A DNA stretch of 64,000 bases from Rhodocyclaceae bacterium (GTDB lineage Bacteria > Pseudomonadota > Gammaproteobacteria > Burkholderiales > Rhodocyclaceae), in assembly GCA_004379165.1 (NCBI GenBank), contig NKXK01000027.1, forward strand, positions 186,001-250,000, written 5' to 3'. Shown here piece by piece: positions 18,406-35,368 of this stretch. The notes beneath the pieces were generated by a model. That model did no database searches. It saw only the letters and a list, made by a program, of their open reading frames with translations, and was not told where the DNA came from. Within the stretch, counting starts at the first letter, position 1. Each line of letters starts with the position of its first letter. Both the position numbers and the translations under genes were made by a program.

Positions 18406-18439
18406 ACTATTTTTCGGCCGGCTTGAAAAAGCCCTCCCA

Positions 18440-18740
18440 CGCCCCCATAATCCAAAGCATGGTTGTAATTCCAGCAAGCTGGAGGCGTTCTGGACGGGGG
18501 TTCGATTCCCCCCATCTCCACCCAAGGGCATTTGATTGAGTGTCCTTGTCTGGGGGTGTACTGGTTTCGACAGGGCGACAAAGGGGCGCAGGCAACCCGA
18601 GAGGCGACGGACGTAATCCGCGCAAATCCATAATTGCCAACGATGAGCAATTCGCTATTGCTGCCTAAACAGCATAGCTGGGGCCGCTGAAGCCTTATTA
18701 CCCAAGACAGCCGGCGGGGACTTCGGTCCCCGTCGTCACG
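18440..18740 (+). ncRNA. ssrA: Transfer-messenger RNA, circularly permuted two-piece type
   Basis: The acceptor part lies upstream. GGACGGGGGTTCGATTCCCC (18492-18511) is a T-arm followed by the 3' acceptor strand CATCTCC at 18513-18519, then A and CC. The coding part lies downstream and starts GGGGGTGTACTGGTTTCGAC at 18552. Its first seven bases pair with CATCTCC with two G-U pairs, as in one-piece tmRNA, but the order is swapped. The tag reading frame at 18636-18668 encodes ANDEQFAIAA then TAA. A stem with a UUCG tetraloop at 18713-18734 ends the coding part. The spacer 18524-18551 would be removed in processing. A full CCA is not encoded. Outer ends are approximate. Confidence 0.9.
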
Positions 18741-18755
18741 TCCAGGTTCCGGAAA

Positions 18756-19451
18756 TTACTCTTCGAGACGGAAGACCAGCGGTACGATCACCGAGGCTTC
18801 AATGGCCTCGTCGCCACGTTTGGCCGCGACGAAGCGCCAGCGTTTGACGACATCGAGTGCGGCGTCGTCCAGGCGGGTGAAATTACTCGATTTTTCCAGG
18901 TCGACCGCAAGTGCGCGCCCATCGCTGCTAACCCGTACCTTGAGCAGTACCTTGCCCTCCTCACCCAAGCGGCGCGACATCGGCGGGTAGTTCGGCCGCG
19001 GATTGTGCAGGTAGGCGGCGTCGAAGCGGGCGGCCGTTACGCTGGCTGCCGCAGCAACCGGGGCACTGGCGACGGCTGCGACGGGAGCGGGCGGGGCGAC
19101 AACCGGTGCCGGGACCGAAAAAGCAGGCGTACTTGCAGCCGTTTCCGCCGGCATCACCAGAATCGGGTGAGGAATCGGCTGCGGATGCGCCCGGTATTTG
19201 TGAGGGGTAGCCGGCTGTGGCGTGGGTGCGGCCACGGGCTGAACTGGAGTTGGTCGGGGCGGTGTGACGGCGTCGACCAGTTTGACGATGACCGTGGCCG
19301 GCGGCGGGATATCGAGTTTGCCGATGGCGATTTTGAGCGGATAGAACAAGACGGCCGCGTGCAGGAAAGCGGCAATGGCCAGGAACGGCCCGCTGCGACG
19401 CCACTCGGCGGCGGGCTGCGGGAAGTCGAGGTCGATGACTGCGGTGTTCAT
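18756..19451 (-). CDS. tonB: TonB energy-transducing protein
   Basis: TonB couples the inner-membrane proton gradient to outer-membrane receptors. The 231-residue product has a short cytoplasmic N-terminus, one membrane anchor (about 22-42), a proline-rich periplasmic spacer (about 60-130) and a C-terminal TonB domain with NPRPNYPPMSRRLGEEGKVL and the closing WRFVAAKRG. ExbB and ExbD are not adjacent. It is next to a TonB-dependent receptor and a regulator, which suggests a dedicated copy for that receptor. Confidence 0.92.
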   Translation of the reverse strand: MNTAVIDLDFPQPAAEWRRSGPFLAIAAFLHAAVLFYPLKIAIGKLDIPPPATVIVKLVDAVTPPRPTPVQPVAAPTPQPATPHKYRAHPQPIPHPILVMPAETAASTPAFSVPAPVVAPPAPVAAVASAPVAAAASVTAARFDAAYLHNPRPNYPPMSRRLGEEGKVLLKVRVSSDGRALAVDLEKSSNFTRLDDAALDVVKRWRFVAAKRGDEAIEASVIVPLVFRLEE

Positions 19452-28742: not shown

Positions 28743-28781
28743 AAAAAAAATCGGCTGATCAGGGAGATCCCCGATCAGCCG
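28743..28781 (-). terminator. Strong intrinsic terminator of the exported-protein operon
   Basis: On the minus strand CGGCTGATC pairs with GATCAGCCG, with an inner GGGA/TCCC extension, followed by A and eight T residues. It follows the last gene of the low-GC operon (stop at 28826) and precedes the HerA-like gene. Confidence 0.88.
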
Positions 28782-28825: not shown

Positions 28826-29137
28826 TTACTTGCCCCCGATGACGCCGGATTCGTTGCCAGTAGAATTATTCTTGCCGATGGCCACGACAGCGGTATTCGC
28901 GTTAACGCCGATCACGTTCGTGTTGCCCTTGATCTGGGAACCCCCCTTGATGGCCCCGGCGGTGTTCTTTGCAGTATTGCCATCACCTATGGCAACGGCA
29001 GCGGTATTGACGTTAACACCAATGACGTTGGAGTTGCCTTCGACCTTCGAGGCGGGGCCTGAAGAGCGTTGTGCTTGCTGGGCCAAAGTTGGAGTAGCAA
29101 GTACGGCGGCAGCAATCATGAAAGAAATCACGCGCAT
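28826..29137 (-). CDS. Exported Asn-rich repeat protein (paralogue 1)
   Basis: The 103-residue product has a signal peptide (MRVISFMIAAAVLATPTLA) and a mature part made of two repeats of about 36 residues. Each repeat contains GN(S/T)NVIGVN and then AVAIG followed by (D/K)(G/N)N. Spaced Asn, Gly and Val/Ile residues suggest stacked beta-strands, somewhat like curlin repeats but not with the same spacing. It is a tandem paralogue of 29200-29514. No enzyme motif is present. I infer a structural subunit of a surface or periplasmic assembly; no known family is recognised. It is the last gene before the terminator. Confidence 0.75.
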   Translation of the reverse strand: MRVISFMIAAAVLATPTLAQQAQRSSGPASKVEGNSNVIGVNVNTAAVAIGDGNTAKNTAGAIKGGSQIKGNTNVIGVNANTAVVAIGKNNSTGNESGVIGGK

Positions 29138-29199
29138 GAAAATTCCCTCAATTGATTTACAGGAACCAAGTAGCCTATGGACAAGAACTCAACGGAGGC

Positions 29200-29514
29200 T
29201 TACTTGCCGCCGATGACGCCAGCTTCGTTAGCGGCGGTGTTGTTCTTGCCGATGGCAACAGCGGCGGTGTTCTGGTTGACACCAATCACGTTGGTGTTCC
29301 CCTTGATTTGGGTGCCGCCCTTGATGGCACCGGCGGTGTTTTTGGCGGTGTTGCCTTCGCCGATGGCGACGGCGGCAGTGTTCTGGTTAACACCGATAAC
29401 ATTGGTGTTGCCTTCGATCTTCACGCCTTGCGGGTTGGAAGAACGTTGAGCTTGCTGGGCGAAAACCGGGGTGGCGGCAACGGCAGCGGCAATCATGAAA
29501 GAAATCAGACGCAT
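29200..29514 (-). CDS. Exported Asn-rich repeat protein (paralogue 2)
   Basis: From the ATG at 29514 (MRLISFMIAAAVAATPVFA), preceded by AAAGGAG, the product is 104 residues. After the signal peptide there are two near-identical repeats of about 36 residues, each holding GNTNVIGVNQNTAAVAIG. The signal peptide and mature region closely match paralogue 1, so a recent tandem duplication is likely. The repeats are also obvious at DNA level. It probably forms the same kind of structure as paralogue 1. Function unknown. Confidence 0.77.
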   Translation of the reverse strand: MRLISFMIAAAVAATPVFAQQAQRSSNPQGVKIEGNTNVIGVNQNTAAVAIGEGNTAKNTAGAIKGGTQIKGNTNVIGVNQNTAAVAIGKNNTAANEAGVIGGK

Positions 29515-29544
29515 GTGAATCTCCTTTGTTGTAAAAAACAAGAA

Positions 29545-30132
29545 TCAACCAGTTACCACTTTAAAGACCACGCGACGATTCTTGGAATCGCGTGAGTCGA
29601 GGTTCGGCATCGGATCGCTAGAGCCCTTGCCTACGGGCACCAGGCGGCGACGATCAATTCCATTTCGAACAGTGATGAAGTTCACGACCGAGCTAGCACG
29701 ATCACGGGACAATGTCATGTTCTTGTCATAATTCCCAGTCGAATCAGTATGTCCTTCGACAATAACACAACGGTCCGGAGACAAAGCCAAGACTCTCGCA
29801 ATTTGACTCAAGGTGACTTCAGATGCGGGGGAAACCGTGGCACTGCCAACATTGAATTGAATTGCAAAATCCACACCAACGGAACGCACGTCCGGCGGCA
29901 AAGACATGCAGTCGCGCGGACCGGGAGATGCTGCCGGCGCAGGTGCCTCAGCAGGGGCGCCCGGCTGATTGTCAAAAACGATGGCGCGCGTACGCATTTT
30001 CGGGCGTGGGGCTTCAGAAGGCGCATTCATGGCGCGTTCCAGTTCCTTCAGTTTGTCTTCGTCGCTTGCTTGGACAATGCCCGCGCTGGTCATTAATGCC
30101 AGGATAATTGCTAATCCAAATCGCGATTTCAT
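29545..30132 (-). CDS. OmpA-domain exported protein
   Basis: From the ATG at 30132, after a GAGG ribosome-binding site, the product is 195 residues. It has a signal peptide ending VQA, a Pro/Ala-rich linker (about 35-70) and a C-terminal OmpA-like domain with VIVEGHTDSTGNYDKNMTLS and the RDSKNRRVVFKV ending, which binds peptidoglycan in this family. It has no beta-barrel and no lipobox. Within the operon it could tether the exported structure to the cell wall. Confidence 0.85.
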   Translation of the reverse strand: MKSRFGLAIILALMTSAGIVQASDEDKLKELERAMNAPSEAPRPKMRTRAIVFDNQPGAPAEAPAPAASPGPRDCMSLPPDVRSVGVDFAIQFNVGSATVSPASEVTLSQIARVLALSPDRCVIVEGHTDSTGNYDKNMTLSRDRASSVVNFITVRNGIDRRRLVPVGKGSSDPMPNLDSRDSKNRRVVFKVVTG

Positions 30133-30139
30133 TACTGCC

Positions 30140-30469
30140 TCACTTGCAAACGTTGATAACTTCTTTGGTTGCGACCACGATATCCTTGGGCTGACGTGAG
30201 TTTCGTGCGCCCCGATCATTCGATTGCTGGCTGGTGCCGACATTCACGCTGCAAGTCCCCTGTTTTTTGCTACCGATATTCACGACCGAAGAACGATCCT
30301 GATTACCGGCGGCCTCACCTTTGGCCTGTTCCGACCAACGCTTGGCTAAAGCGTTGTTCACCTTCTGGTTACCACGGGCATCCAAGCCTTGCACGGCGAA
30401 CGTTACCGCTGGCGCCAGACCAATGGAAATACCCAATGACATAATAAGTAACGCTTTACTTGCATTCAT
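30140..30469 (-). CDS. Exported protein of unknown function in the CsgG-linked operon
   Basis: From the ATG at 30469, with GGAGGG about ten bases upstream, the product is 109 residues with a signal peptide ending TFA. The mature part has one possible disulfide pair (GTCSVNV and the C-terminal VINVCK) and short VVNIG/VNVG strands reminiscent of the repeat proteins. The start overlaps the stop of the preceding gene by 14 bases. An alternative start at 30520 would give 126 residues. No family recognised. Confidence 0.65.
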   Translation of the reverse strand: MNASKALLIMSLGISIGLAPAVTFAVQGLDARGNQKVNNALAKRWSEQAKGEAAGNQDRSSVVNIGSKKQGTCSVNVGTSQQSNDRGARNSRQPKDIVVATKEVINVCK

Positions 30470-30767
30470 CGCTGACAATCCCTCCAATATTTGTGCATGC
30501 TTTTTTGTTGCGTCCGACAACTACCGTTGACACATTACCGGCAGCAACAGCGATGTTGGTGTTGCCCTTCTTTTCTCCCTGAACCACCCCAACGCGATTT
30601 TTGGCAACATTCCCCTCGCCAATAGCGACGGCGGTCATGTTATTGGTGACGGCGGTTATATTGGTGTTGCCCTGAATGCGGGTTGGCGCGTTCTTCTGGC
30701 TCTGCTGAGCCACTACCGGTTGGCAAACCAGTGCAAGTAGCGAAAAGGTGCAAGCGAAGTAATTCAT
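30456..30767 (-). CDS. Exported Asn-rich repeat protein (divergent, cysteine-containing)
   Basis: The 103-residue product has a signal peptide (ending VVA) and two repeats related to those of the two downstream paralogues: GNTNITAVTNNMTAVAIG and GNTNIAVAAGNVSTVVVG. It differs by ending with two cysteines (KKACTNIGGIVSDEC), which could cap or cross-link the structure. It may be a minor or terminal subunit, by analogy with nucleator/major subunit pairs in curli; that is an inference. Confidence 0.72.
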   Translation of the reverse strand: MNYFACTFSLLALVCQPVVAQQSQKNAPTRIQGNTNITAVTNNMTAVAIGEGNVAKNRVGVVQGEKKGNTNIAVAAGNVSTVVVGRNKKACTNIGGIVSDECK

Positions 30768-30776
30768 GGCATGGCC

Positions 30777-31667
30777 TCACATCATTGGCAGGCGGATGGG
30801 AGGACTGCCGCGTTTGAACGTGCTACGCATCTGCTGGAGCTCAGCTTCGGAAACGCCGAGCTTACTGGCACTGAACGACTTGGGGTCCGGAGTAAACATT
30901 AAGTAGGCCTGCATTTCGTTGATCAACAGTTCATCGTTGGTAACGGCGTAATTGAAGTTAGACAGGAAGCGCTTGAACGCTTCTCTCTGCCCTTCAGTAA
31001 GCGTCTCGTACCAAAAGCGCTGACAGAATTTTTGATAATGGCTGTTGGTGTAGTACTCGCCGTGTGCCAACTCATGTAACAGTATGGCATGACGAGCGCC
31101 GACCGTTACAACGGGCTCAGAGGCCTGTCGCGGTTGCGGTTGTGGAATGGACAAGAGCACGACATCCGGACGCATTGCCTGGTAGAAGCCCCGCCAGAAC
31201 CGTATCAAACCCTGTTCAGTCAGAAAATCACGGATAAAGATTTCTTCCTGGTTCAGTTCTACCTTGTCTCTGGTTGCGTAGTTGAAAAACTGGACCAATT
31301 CGGATACCAGCACATCGTGCCCGAAGGCGAAATCAGCTTGCGTCCGGCGCGCTGCTTCGATGAAACGGCTAAGCTCAGCGTTGCTGAGAACCTTGGGATA
31401 AGGCTCTGTCGTTTGCTGTTCGGTGAATTGGGTGATGCGGTTGAAGCTGCGTCCTTGGAACGAAAGGCCAGGGAAGTCAAAGACGTACACATTCGGATTC
31501 TCGGCCATCTGCCAGATCGTCAGCGACTCTGAGCGCGTATTCAAGACGGTTTGGAATTCTCCGGTAACGAACTGTTGCCCCCAAGCGCAACCGGTCGCCA
31601 TGAAGACGACTGCCGCTATTAGCGATCGAGCAGTGCGGGCAGTGGGCGAACAGGTAGGGTTAAGCAC
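30777..31667 (-). CDS. Exported HExxH-motif protein, putative metallopeptidase
   Basis: The 296-residue product starts at a GTG with GGAG eight bases upstream. An N-terminal hydrophobic segment ends VFMATGCAWG, so it may be a lipoprotein anchored at Cys27, though the lipobox is not canonical. HELAH at 198-202 in AILLHELAHGEYYTN is a zinc-binding HExxH motif, and Glu251 in INEMQAY is placed like a third gluzincin ligand. No family is recognised with certainty. A processing or maturation role for the co-encoded exported proteins is plausible but unproven. Confidence 0.7.
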   Translation of the reverse strand: MLNPTCSPTARTARSLIAAVVFMATGCAWGQQFVTGEFQTVLNTRSESLTIWQMAENPNVYVFDFPGLSFQGRSFNRITQFTEQQTTEPYPKVLSNAELSRFIEAARRTQADFAFGHDVLVSELVQFFNYATRDKVELNQEEIFIRDFLTEQGLIRFWRGFYQAMRPDVVLLSIPQPQPRQASEPVVTVGARHAILLHELAHGEYYTNSHYQKFCQRFWYETLTEGQREAFKRFLSNFNYAVTNDELLINEMQAYLMFTPDPKSFSASKLGVSEAELQQMRSTFKRGSPPIRLPMM

Positions 31668-31683
31668 GTGCGGTCTCCAAGTA

Positions 31684-32091
31684 TTATCGTTTGTAGTAGT
31701 CTAGGCGGTAAGCATTCGCACGTGCAATATTGTTGCGAAGTTCTACCTGTCTTTCAGAGCTTGGGGCACCAATCGCGCTGTAGCGCTGCGGGTATACCAA
31801 CAGGGCGCCCGTTCGAGAATCGTAACGGCTGTTACCTCGCCACGCCTGGCTTCTTTGAATGAGGTACCCGGTTTCGGTTTGAGCACCGGGTGCAAAGACA
31901 ATACCTGGCATCGCCCGACTGTTGGCAAAGGCCGGCGGCGGGGGGCGCAACGCGCCATATGAAGCACTTCCATCGAGCACGATTCCAGCCTCGACCATAG
32001 GGCTTAGTCCCATGCTAAGGAGTAGGCCGAACGCCAAGCGCCTATTGTTCCTGGACTGCGACACTGCCGTCCTTGCCCCACTTGATGACAT
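31684..32091 (-). CDS. Exported protein of unknown function
   Basis: The 135-residue product has a basic N-terminus and hydrophobic segment (RRLAFGLLLSMGLSPMVEA) that looks like a signal peptide. The mature part is rich in Arg, Tyr, Ser and Pro. No domain is recognised. The ATG used overlaps the end of the upstream gene by 50 bases; a later start would shorten only the N-region. Its place in the operon suggests an accessory role in the same envelope structure. Confidence 0.58.
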   Translation of the reverse strand: MSSSGARTAVSQSRNNRRLAFGLLLSMGLSPMVEAGIVLDGSASYGALRPPPPAFANSRAMPGIVFAPGAQTETGYLIQRSQAWRGNSRYDSRTGALLVYPQRYSAIGAPSSERQVELRNNIARANAYRLDYYKR

Positions 32092-32419
32092 ATGTTTTCC
32101 CCGTCTTCTTCGATTTCACAGGGGACTTCCCGCGAGGAATCTTCTCACCATCAATATAGACCTCATTGTTCAGAATCGTAATCCCTTCAAGCTGAACATT
32201 GGGGCCGATGGTGCCGGCGCTGTTGGTGACGACGGAGGAGCTGCCTCCGCTTTTCGTAACTACCGAGGAGTTTGTGCCGCCGTTGTTGGTCACGACTGAC
32301 GCGCCTTTGTCTCCGGTTTGGACCTTGATGCCCAGACCAGGAAGGTCAACGGATACCTGCGCATGAGCCTGCATGATCAAGAGCCCGGCAGCAGCAATCA
32401 AGCATTTCCGAAATGCCAT
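32042..32419 (-). CDS. Exported SVVT-repeat protein of unknown function
   Basis: From the ATG at 32419, preceded by AAGGA, the product is 125 residues with a signal peptide ending AHA. Mature residues about 35-70 contain short repeats built on SVVT(N/K)xGG, then a compact C-terminal segment, NNEVYIDGEKIPRG, followed by a lysine-rich stretch. The repeats could form beta-strands. An upstream start at 32497 lacks a good ribosome-binding site. No family recognised. Confidence 0.65.
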   Translation of the reverse strand: MAFRKCLIAAAGLLIMQAHAQVSVDLPGLGIKVQTGDKGASVVTNNGGTNSSVVTKSGGSSSVVTNSAGTIGPNVQLEGITILNNEVYIDGEKIPRGKSPVKSKKTGKTYVIKWGKDGSVAVQEQ

Positions 32420-32498
32420 GAGGGGAATCCTTTGAGGGAGAGCGTTTCGTTGATAGCGAAAATAACGCGCAGAGAAGCGGATGGTTGACGTGAGCATG

Positions 32499-33062
32499 TT
32501 AGTTGCAACGCACCTTGATTTTCTGGCCGTTTCTTACAATGAGAACAATCGCGCCGCGAATACTGTCGTCGCCGATGCGCCCTGAAACATTGTCGACCGG
32601 TCGACAAGGCACCAATGGAATGCCATCCCGGCCAACGTTGCTCAGATCGAGTTCATCGTTGTTGCCAGTGGTTGCAAATGCACGGGCCCGGGCACGATTG
32701 TCGCTCCCCCCGTACGCATCTTGCCCACCCTGAATTATCGCTCCGTAAGCAGGGTCGGATTGTTGCTGGTAGCTACGGGCGCGAGAGCGGTTATCGTAGG
32801 CACGTTCCTCCGCCGGGGCACCACCTCGGGGGGAAAGAATCCCCGGGCCGTCATCCACGAATATGGGTGCTTCGTCGCGGTAACCTGCTGCGCGGTCCCG
32901 TTGGTTACGCGCCCCCGTGCCAGTTTGCGCGGGGGCTTTTTCCGGGCCAACGATGAGTTCTGCAAATTGCATCGGCTGAAACTCCCCTGCATTGGCGGTT
33001 TGTCCAACGGCCAGAAACAGGGGAGCAGCTATCACGAATGCTTTGAACAAGGGCTTAACCAC
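32499..33062 (-). CDS. Exported protein of unknown function with C-terminal cysteines
   Basis: The 187-residue product starts at GTG after a GGGAG ribosome-binding site and has a signal peptide ending ANA. The middle is Arg/Asp/Gly-rich and probably flexible, with two similar RARA(F/R)-type segments near 95 and 125. The C-terminal 45 residues hold a compact part with two cysteines (VPCRPVDNVSGRIGDDS and KIKVRCN). It is the second gene of the operon, 25 bases after the CsgG-like gene. No family recognised. Confidence 0.62.
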   Translation of the reverse strand: MVKPLFKAFVIAAPLFLAVGQTANAGEFQPMQFAELIVGPEKAPAQTGTGARNQRDRAAGYRDEAPIFVDDGPGILSPRGGAPAEERAYDNRSRARSYQQQSDPAYGAIIQGGQDAYGGSDNRARARAFATTGNNDELDLSNVGRDGIPLVPCRPVDNVSGRIGDDSIRGAIVLIVRNGQKIKVRCN

Positions 33063-33087
33063 GATTGGCCAGCTCCCTCTGAGCTAT

Positions 33088-34647
33088 TTACCGGGTGACC
33101 GTAACGTCAATATAGCTTGCGATTGCCGCCGGATTCAGTTGCCGATACTGATTAACAATTTCATCCAGCGAACGGACGGGCAACGGCGTCAGGTCACGGG
33201 CACCCCGCAACGCATTGGGTATCAACAACTCACGGTCGGCACCGACGCAGGCCACGCGTTCCTTGCCTGCCTGGTCAAAGCGAATCTTGAATCCACCACT
33301 GGGCAAACGGATCGTACTACCGGAGCGCAAGGTGGGATTCCCGAAGAATTGGTTGGGGAAAATCCGAGCTACCTGTCGTGCGGTGTCCTCGTAGTAACAG
33401 TACACCGTACCGTCGCCGCTCAATGAAAGCGACATGTTAAGGAAGTCTCCGACTTTATAGCTGGGGCGGTCCCCTCTGTCGCTGGACAAATTAACGCGGA
33501 AAACAGATTGCGCTGGTGCGGCTGAGACCGGTTGTGGCACCGGCGCTGGCGGTGCGCTCATGCTTGGTACTGAACTCTTGGCGGGAGGCGTACTGGGAAC
33601 GTATGCCAGTTGATTCTGCACATCGTCAAGCAGGCTGGCATACAGATCGAAATTGATTCTGCCGTCGGCAACCAGATTGCTTCGGGCCTGGTACTCGAGA
33701 ATGGCATCTTTGAGCGTGTCGTTCATCCGGCCATCGATCGGGCCCTTATAGCGCTGCATGCTGCCGCCAAGTTTTCGCTGAATGAAGGTGATGCGCTCGC
33801 TTTCCTTGAGCGTATCGAATGTCTCAAGTGCCTGCTCGCGAATGACGGGGTTGGTGATATCCGCGTCAAGGCAGCGCCAGTAGGGAACCTGGGTGAACTT
33901 ACCCAGGGTTTCAATCATGCCGAGTTCAAGCAGGGTTCTGGTTGTTGCACCGAGACCTTCGGAGCGACTGAAGTCGAGGTTGAACGAGAAGCCGATTTTT
34001 CCGAGCTTGCCGCCAGCTTCCGCGGATTTCCCCTGCTTCATGATGACCATGGTGTTGGCCGTGCTGGTCTGAGGCAGGATCTTGCGGGTGGCTGCATCAC
34101 CAATGCTCATGTCCATGCTGATCAGGTCGTAGGACATGTCGGCCGACAGACCGAAGTCAAAAAACGATGCAGCCAAGCCGAAGCCGCTATTCTTCCGGAT
34201 GGCATTGTCATCCATCTGTGTAATCGATCCCCGGATGTAGTAATCGGGGATCTTCAGCATATTCATGCCCTTGGTGTCGAACAGTCTGGCAAGATCGTCG
34301 CCGCCACCGTGAAAGTCGATGAACTCGAAGGCATTGCTTTTGACCGTCATTTTGGCGATGGCCGTGATCAGCATTTCCTTGGTTCCGGTACGCACCTTGC
34401 CGGTCTCGTCCGGTATCCCCGTAGACGTGATCACAATGCCGTTCTTTCCGTACGCAAGGAATAACTCATCCATGCACCGCAGTGCCTGATTGAAGTTGGT
34501 GATGGTCTTGATTGCTGGGGTTTTTGGCGCAGAAGAAGTAGATACCGTGGCCGCTGGGTCATTCCAGCGGCCGAATTCGCTTTGAGAGGCAGCAACGCTG
34601 CAAAACACAGCCAGCGGGAGCGCAGCGAGACAAGTAGGTTTGGACAT
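33088..34647 (-). CDS. CsgG-like exported protein with peptidoglycan-binding-like and DUF4384-like domains
   Basis: This is the first gene of the low-GC operon. From the ATG at 34647, preceded by AAGGG, the product is 519 residues with a signal peptide. Residues about 50-258 resemble the CsgG family, whose founder is the curli secretion channel: a strand-rich start, then IPDYYIRGSITQMD and a long IGDAATRKILPQTSTANTM stretch. Residues about 285-345 resemble a peptidoglycan-binding repeat (YKGPIDGRMNDTLKDAI). After a Pro/Ala linker, residues about 395-480 resemble DUF4384 (VYCYYEDTARQVARIFPNQ). No lipobox Cys is obvious, unlike CsgG. I infer an outer-membrane-associated export or assembly factor. 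Confidence 0.75.
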   Translation of the reverse strand: MSKPTCLAALPLAVFCSVAASQSEFGRWNDPAATVSTSSAPKTPAIKTITNFNQALRCMDELFLAYGKNGIVITSTGIPDETGKVRTGTKEMLITAIAKMTVKSNAFEFIDFHGGGDDLARLFDTKGMNMLKIPDYYIRGSITQMDDNAIRKNSGFGLAASFFDFGLSADMSYDLISMDMSIGDAATRKILPQTSTANTMVIMKQGKSAEAGGKLGKIGFSFNLDFSRSEGLGATTRTLLELGMIETLGKFTQVPYWRCLDADITNPVIREQALETFDTLKESERITFIQRKLGGSMQRYKGPIDGRMNDTLKDAILEYQARSNLVADGRINFDLYASLLDDVQNQLAYVPSTPPAKSSVPSMSAPPAPVPQPVSAAPAQSVFRVNLSSDRGDRPSYKVGDFLNMSLSLSGDGTVYCYYEDTARQVARIFPNQFFGNPTLRSGSTIRLPSGGFKIRFDQAGKERVACVGADRELLIPNALRGARDLTPLPVRSLDEIVNQYRQLNPAAIASYIDVTVTR

Positions 34648-34708: not shown

Positions 34709-35368
34709 CTAGATTATGTAGCGGTGAGAGAAAACGCAATTGTTTTCCTCGGTAGAGAGACGATAGTTATGCGCTCGCTCCAAAAAAAAGATGCTGCGCA
34801 GCGTGCCGTCGTTGTCCGGGATGACATCGGCGGCGCCGATGAAGCGCTGGGCGTCGAAGTCAGGGAGCGACATCAGGTAACTTTGCGCCGGCAGCAGGGT
34901 TTCTTCTGCGGTTTGCATGCCGGCGAGCACCAGTTTGCCGGTGGCCAGTTCCTGGCGGAAGTTGAGGTCGAAGCTCCGGGCTGCGGCACTGCTGGCGCCG
35001 CCGAAGCGGGCGAACCATTCTTCCGGGCTGGCGCTGAAGAGAAAGTCGAGTCCGATGACCGTGGCGCCGGCCTCGCGCAGCGTGCGCGTTGCCTGCGCGT
35101 AGCGTGGTCCCCAAAAGAGCAGCGGCTCGTTCGGATAGGCGCGGAGTGTCGCCTCATCCACCTTGACCAGCACGACATGTTCGACCGGATGATGCTGACC
35201 GGCGTTACGCAGCCAAAGGTCACTGTAGAAGCGTTCGGCACCGTCGAGCAGGCCTTTTTGCCACAAGGCTTCGCTGATCAGCAGTGCGATAAGCGCAATC
35301 AGCAGGGCGCGCAGGAGACGGCGGGGGGCGCCGGCCGGTCGGTGGGGCATGTGTGAAGTCTTCTCCAT
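34709..35368 (-). CDS. CHASE2-domain protein, truncated at the C-terminus
   Basis: The 219-residue product has a membrane segment (about 17-36) followed by an extracytoplasmic CHASE2 sensor domain: [20 protein letters not shown] and then [20 protein letters not shown]2 proteins normally continue with more membrane segments and a cyclase, kinase or other output domain. Here the frame ends soon after [14 protein letters not shown], 61 bases before the start of the low-GC operon, and no output domain is found nearby. I interpret it as a 3'-truncated remnant. It may be non-functional. Confidence 0.72.

Follow-up and report, generated by a model that had tools for sequence, protein, structure and literature searches.

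The stretch of DNA analysed here (the window) spans 64,000 nucleotides of contig NKXK01000027.1 (positions 186,001 to 250,000; assembly GCA_004379165.1) from a member of the Rhodocyclaceae. Positions 28826-34647 of the window host, on the minus strand, ten open frames named g1 to g10 by order of transcription, as a preliminary description drawn from the sequence alone had reported. The first product is predicted to adopt the fold of the curli protein CsgG, and the ten-gene set is conserved in many water and sludge bacteria. Relatives were collected by scanning one genome per species with two g1 peptides, and 62 loci were obtained. Loci with five or more of the eight partner families (g2 to g8, and the g9 type) downstream of g1 on the same strand were called canonical, and number 29. 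The counts in the following lines refer to these.

33088..34647, minus strand: g1, CsgG fold (residues about 49-262) followed by PG_binding_1 (286-338) and DUF4384 (396-470) domains; from Pfam, structure model, Foldseek and VIA-align
32499..33062, minus strand: g2, small exported protein with a GTG start and two Cys close to the C-terminus; 25/29 loci
32042..32419, minus strand: g3, small exported protein, alternative start at 32497; 27/29 loci
31684..32091, minus strand: g4, small protein, the least conserved of the ten; 17/29 loci
30777..31667, minus strand: g5, putative zinc metalloprotease, HExxHxE and downstream NExQAYL; 29/29 loci
30456..30767, minus strand: g6, repeat-family protein with a two-cysteine motif at its end; 29/29 loci
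30140..30469, minus strand: g7, small exported protein, two conserved Cys, C-terminal CK; 28/29 loci
29545..30132, minus strand: g8, OmpA-domain protein (PF00691, E 6.8e-19), predicted peptidoglycan tether; 29/29 loci
29200..29514, minus strand: g9, repeat protein, two 37-residue units, modelled beta coils; g9 type in 28/29 loci
28826..29137, minus strand: g10, second g9-type repeat protein, 83% identical to g9
28752..28781, minus strand: intrinsic-terminator-like hairpin, 13 pairs followed by a T run, starting 44 bp past the g10 stop
34709..35368, minus strand: truncated gene of 219 aa with part of a CHASE2 domain (PF05226, E 1.2e-16, profile positions 5-126 of 257) and no cyclase domain

The genes are separated, from g1 to g10, by 25, 79, -50, 16, 9, -14, 7, 30 and 62 bp. 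The spacing of 2-62 bases, or overlap, previously assigned to them holds for most pairs, and fails for the 79-bp interval between g2 and g3, unless g3 starts at 32497. The hairpin after g10, formerly described as a strong terminator closing the operon, is by far the best placed of the terminator-like sites, which as a class occur near chance level (11 found, 8.3 expected). A promoter scan gave no excess over chance (2 found, 3.8 expected). The signal peptides thought likely for all products agree with a crude hydrophobicity test, the highest 10-residue Kyte-Doolittle mean at the N-terminus ranging from 2.0 to 2.8 in all ten; the fit to an exported protein is least clear for g4. Pfam cut-offs are exceeded only in g1 (DUF4384, PG_binding_1) and g8 (OmpA), and in none of the other eight products; g2 and g4 belong to no family in either Pfam or NCBIfam, and g3 to none above cut-off.

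The gene set is found together in other genomes. Twenty-six of the 29 canonical loci are fully collinear; in the remaining three, the g9-type gene is followed by an additional OmpA gene. Four more loci, in Rhodocyclus purpureus (DSM 168), Propionivibrio dicarboxylicus DSM 5885 and two metagenome-assembled genomes (MAGs), are split into two divergent blocks. Within the Rhodocyclaceae, the g1 profile matches 36 of 297 genomes at E 1e-40. In all of the 25 best (E 2.2e-175 or better), g5 lies 886-1638 bp from g1 on its contig, and the 11 weaker matches lack it; g5 occurs without g1 in a single genome of the family, where the match lies 498 bp from the contig start. In a phylum-wide sample, g1 matches were found at E 1e-10 in 20 of 398 genomes. 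Carriers include genomes or MAGs of Accumulibacter, Azonexus, Sulfuritalea, Gallionella and Giesbergeria (G. anulus ATCC 35958). No description of the operon was found among open-licence papers, subscription papers and preprints aside.

The resemblance of g1 to CsgG, noted in the preliminary description, is one of fold. The structure model matches CsgG clearly in both Foldseek and VIA-align, and the protein aligns co-linearly to E. coli CsgG, with both of the hairpin segments that form the barrel. The sequence profile PF03783, in turn, stays under its cut-off (11.6 against 20.8 bits, E 0.17), and has no match in the source genome at E 0.001; 14 of 24 g1 relatives match it at E up to 1, the best at 8.4e-4. 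The two domains supposed to be added to g1 both pass the Pfam cut-offs, DUF4384 at E 1.8e-12 and PG_binding_1 at E 8.5e-5 (23.1 bits, cut-off 23). Orphan second copies of g1 reside in Sulfuritalea-type MAGs (L022, L029), in which the other g1 (L013, L057) retains the operon. In two Alphaproteobacteria, two adjoining proteins with no Pfam or NCBIfam family are encoded 3' of g1 (L046:12219-14857, L047:12018-14413).

Three products had been regarded as repeat proteins. A 37-residue repeat is evident in g9 and g10, which are 60% and 46% identical to themselves at offset 37, values reached in none of 500 shuffles. No self-repeat above chance was found in g6 (equalled or exceeded in 152 of 500 shuffles), but the profile of its family matches the g9/g10 family at E 7.7e-23. 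An AlphaFold2 model of g9, built from 57 sequences, has a block of pLDDT 89-96 at residues 31-100, in which two matching sets of four strands are predicted to make two beta coils; the model has no match among solved structures. Curlin is not among the 25 of 26 families listed for the 57 repeat proteins, and only the signal peptide could be aligned to CsgA (alignment A2). Proteins of about 200 residues (P0121-P0125) give stronger matches to the g9 profile than proteins of single length do, and are perhaps fused or duplicated subunits. A gammaproteobacterial MAG encodes a 366-residue protein made of many near-identical Asn/Gln/Ser-rich repeats of the GVNQSQSGALNSQ type (L053:8377-9477), which adjoins g7- and g1-like genes and is a possible long-form subunit.

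The HExxH protein of the early account is g5. Its HExxHxE and NExQAYL motifs are invariant in 32 aligned homologues (alignment A4), and HExxH together with a downstream Glu is the signature of a zincin, in which NExQAYL presumably plays a role. None of the 32 family members matches a Pfam peptidase family over cut-off, and g5 has no relative in the Protein Data Bank.

Comparison with curli (CsgA-CsgG, type VIII secretion) suggests that the operon is best regarded as a variant of CsgG-type export, not as curli. Common to both are a first protein with the CsgG fold and both hairpin segments, and the co-encoded small Asn/Gly-rich repeat proteins. However, the repeats of the operon are 37 residues long and gave no curlin match, g1 carries PG_binding_1 and DUF4384 in addition, and an OmpA-domain and an HExxHxE protein are part of the set. 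In accordance with the earlier statement that classical curli genes are missing, curlin (PF07012, at E 0.001), CsgE and CsgF are each absent from all 22 carrier genomes tested, the E. coli controls being positive. No Fap name occurs among the Pfam and NCBIfam matches of the ten products, though no search was aimed at Fap. Dueholm et al. 2012 considered non-curli CsgG matches as likely paralogues within a larger family (PMC3521004). The accessible part of that paper reports no comparable operon, and g1 falls below the Pfam cut-off used there. The operon may be one such paralogue branch, now provided with partners.

Export and surface assembly is the simplest reading, because a CsgG-fold protein is encoded along with small exported beta-coil proteins and two wall-binding domains. 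According to this view, to which a probability of about 0.5 can be assigned, g1 is an outer-membrane channel which would export the beta-solenoid repeat proteins of its own operon, likely into a fibre or coat held by the wall. Judging from their N-termini, all ten products would reach the periplasm via Sec. The CsgG domains of g1 may form a ring, with two hairpins per subunit lining the barrel, as fold and co-linearity predict, and the peptidoglycan-binding and DUF4384 domains would remain below it. Cargo or subunits are plausibly g6, g9 and g10, which might stack outside the cell by their 37-residue beta coils. Domain content suggests g8 and g1 as the links between the assembly and peptidoglycan. 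The trimming or release of subunits by g5, as the processing protease for the products of the operon, is the weakest step of the scheme. Accessory roles may be played by g2, g3, g4 and g7, the latter, conserved enough and with two cysteines, being a candidate minor subunit or chaperone. The fibre system envisaged in the preliminary description is upheld in part, by the conserved gene set, the CsgG fold, the dedicated exported repeat proteins, the two predicted wall-binding domains, the zincin-like protein and the lack of classical curli genes. Gene order, conservation, co-occurrence and the island setting are observations and the folds of g1 and g9 predictions, while the open pore, the cargo, the fibre or amyloid, the tethering and the processing by g5 stay conjectural.

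Alternatively, g1 could be a periplasmic ring or scaffold that has a CsgG-type domain but forms no pore, as PelC and FlgT. The set would then be a periplasmic complex for envelope stress or quality control, its proteases being the zincin and, in relatives, the caspase-like enzyme encoded near the operon (see below). This is rather unlikely. Also unlikely, and a little more so, is the notion that no fibre is formed, and that g1 works like HfaB, the repeat proteins being an adhesin layer which fastens exopolysaccharide to the outer membrane, in the way HfaA and HfaD do for the Caulobacter holdfast. In the HfaABD system, as far as its published outline goes, a CsgG-like protein is paired with small curlin-like and adhesin-like surface proteins (PMC6707917). 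All 24 g1 relatives match the HfaB equivalog NF037935 weakly (best E 2.4e-4), and a Caulobacter locus (L065) has distant g1 and repeat-family matches. However, g1 itself reaches 16.6 bits where the cut-off demands 300, the gene content differs from HfaABD, and clustering of the flanking genes revealed no polysaccharide gene constantly next to the operon. Export of a diffusible effector is very improbable: Neisseria MafA, likened to CsgG, serves a non-curli cargo, MafB (PMC7738311), but that cargo is a toxin, and repeat proteins of this kind do not appear in the portion of the source available. Pfam and NCBIfam revealed neither toxin nor effector domains in the products of the operon, whose repeats are short, uniform and present in several copies.

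The preliminary description missed that the operon resembles an inserted island, and that elsewhere it is often found near caspase-like proteases and CHASE2 proteins. Its GC content of 0.546 is lower than that of 92 overlapping windows of equal length (mean 0.630, sd 0.015, minimum 0.602). The operon sits between what are presumably, from their sequences, a HerA-like gene and yebC. Among 19 yebC loci of congeners, the HerA-like gene lies at most 170 bp from yebC in 12 and further away in three; neither gene nor operon occurs within the 1.5-kb flank in three, and g1 lies in that flank in one (L084, genome G017). At L008 the operon likewise lies between the HerA-like gene and yebC. A first survey of 35 congeners found g1 in just three. 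In the g1 tree, the source copy groups with Accumulibacter vicinus, Accumulibacter contiguus and Comamonadaceae (support 98/87), and three copies assigned to congeners (L008, L009, L016) fall outside this group. Betaproteobacteria also surround the copies from Desulfobulbaceae and a further deltaproteobacterial MAG (100/99). MAG binning errors might mimic part of this signal.

The truncated CHASE2 gene, which retains half of the CHASE2 profile, stands between the operon and yebC, and none of the 22 congeners searched gave a match to it. Its position beside the operon fits arrival together with the island, and it is likely a remnant of the former neighbourhood of the operon. By clustering and Pfam, the genes that recur at the flanks of the operon encode caspase-like proteases (Peptidase_C14), part of which carry WD40 repeats, CHASE2-adenylate/guanylate cyclases, a protein with a weak match to the FecR domain, and an alpha/beta hydrolase. 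Caspase domains occur near the operon in 26 of 62 loci, with 1.5 expected (138 in 98.7 Mb), and CHASE2 in 9 of 62, with 0.6 expected (53 in 98.7 Mb), both comparisons being subject to sampling caveats. No caspase frame was found in the window. A block encoding a protein without assigned name, an alpha/beta hydrolase, a caspase-like protease, a small FecR/LapA-retention-like protein and a CHASE2 cyclase recurs near the operon at L031:16498-21486, L038:15930-21455, L041:13736-17356 and L014:15926-21460. Elsewhere in the window, a tmRNA gene resides on the plus strand at 18431-18759 (tag peptide ANDEQFAIAA).

A broader scenario is conceivable, though doubtful. CsgG-type secretion would have a second branch that is independent of curlin, a mobile operon with a channel and beta-solenoid fibre subunits of its own, two tethers to the wall and a protease for maturation, which gives an amyloid-like matrix protein to sludge and freshwater Betaproteobacteria devoid of curli. 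In its fuller form, the operon would be coupled to a CHASE2 cyclase and a caspase-like protease, which sense the coat and edit it.

Amyloid-like adhesins have been reported from activated sludge and granules, and, in the portions of the reports available, some of the sludge producers are merely suggested (PMC12016536, PMC12019908). The single curlin protein noted in that portion of PMC12019908 came from Flavobacterium; in the carrier genomes tested here curlin was not found. If the repeat proteins do form fibres, the operon supplies named genes for the question of which sludge bacteria produce amyloid. In that case, a CsgG-type channel would also be seen to serve a different class of subunits, and the rule by which such channels take their cargo would become testable.
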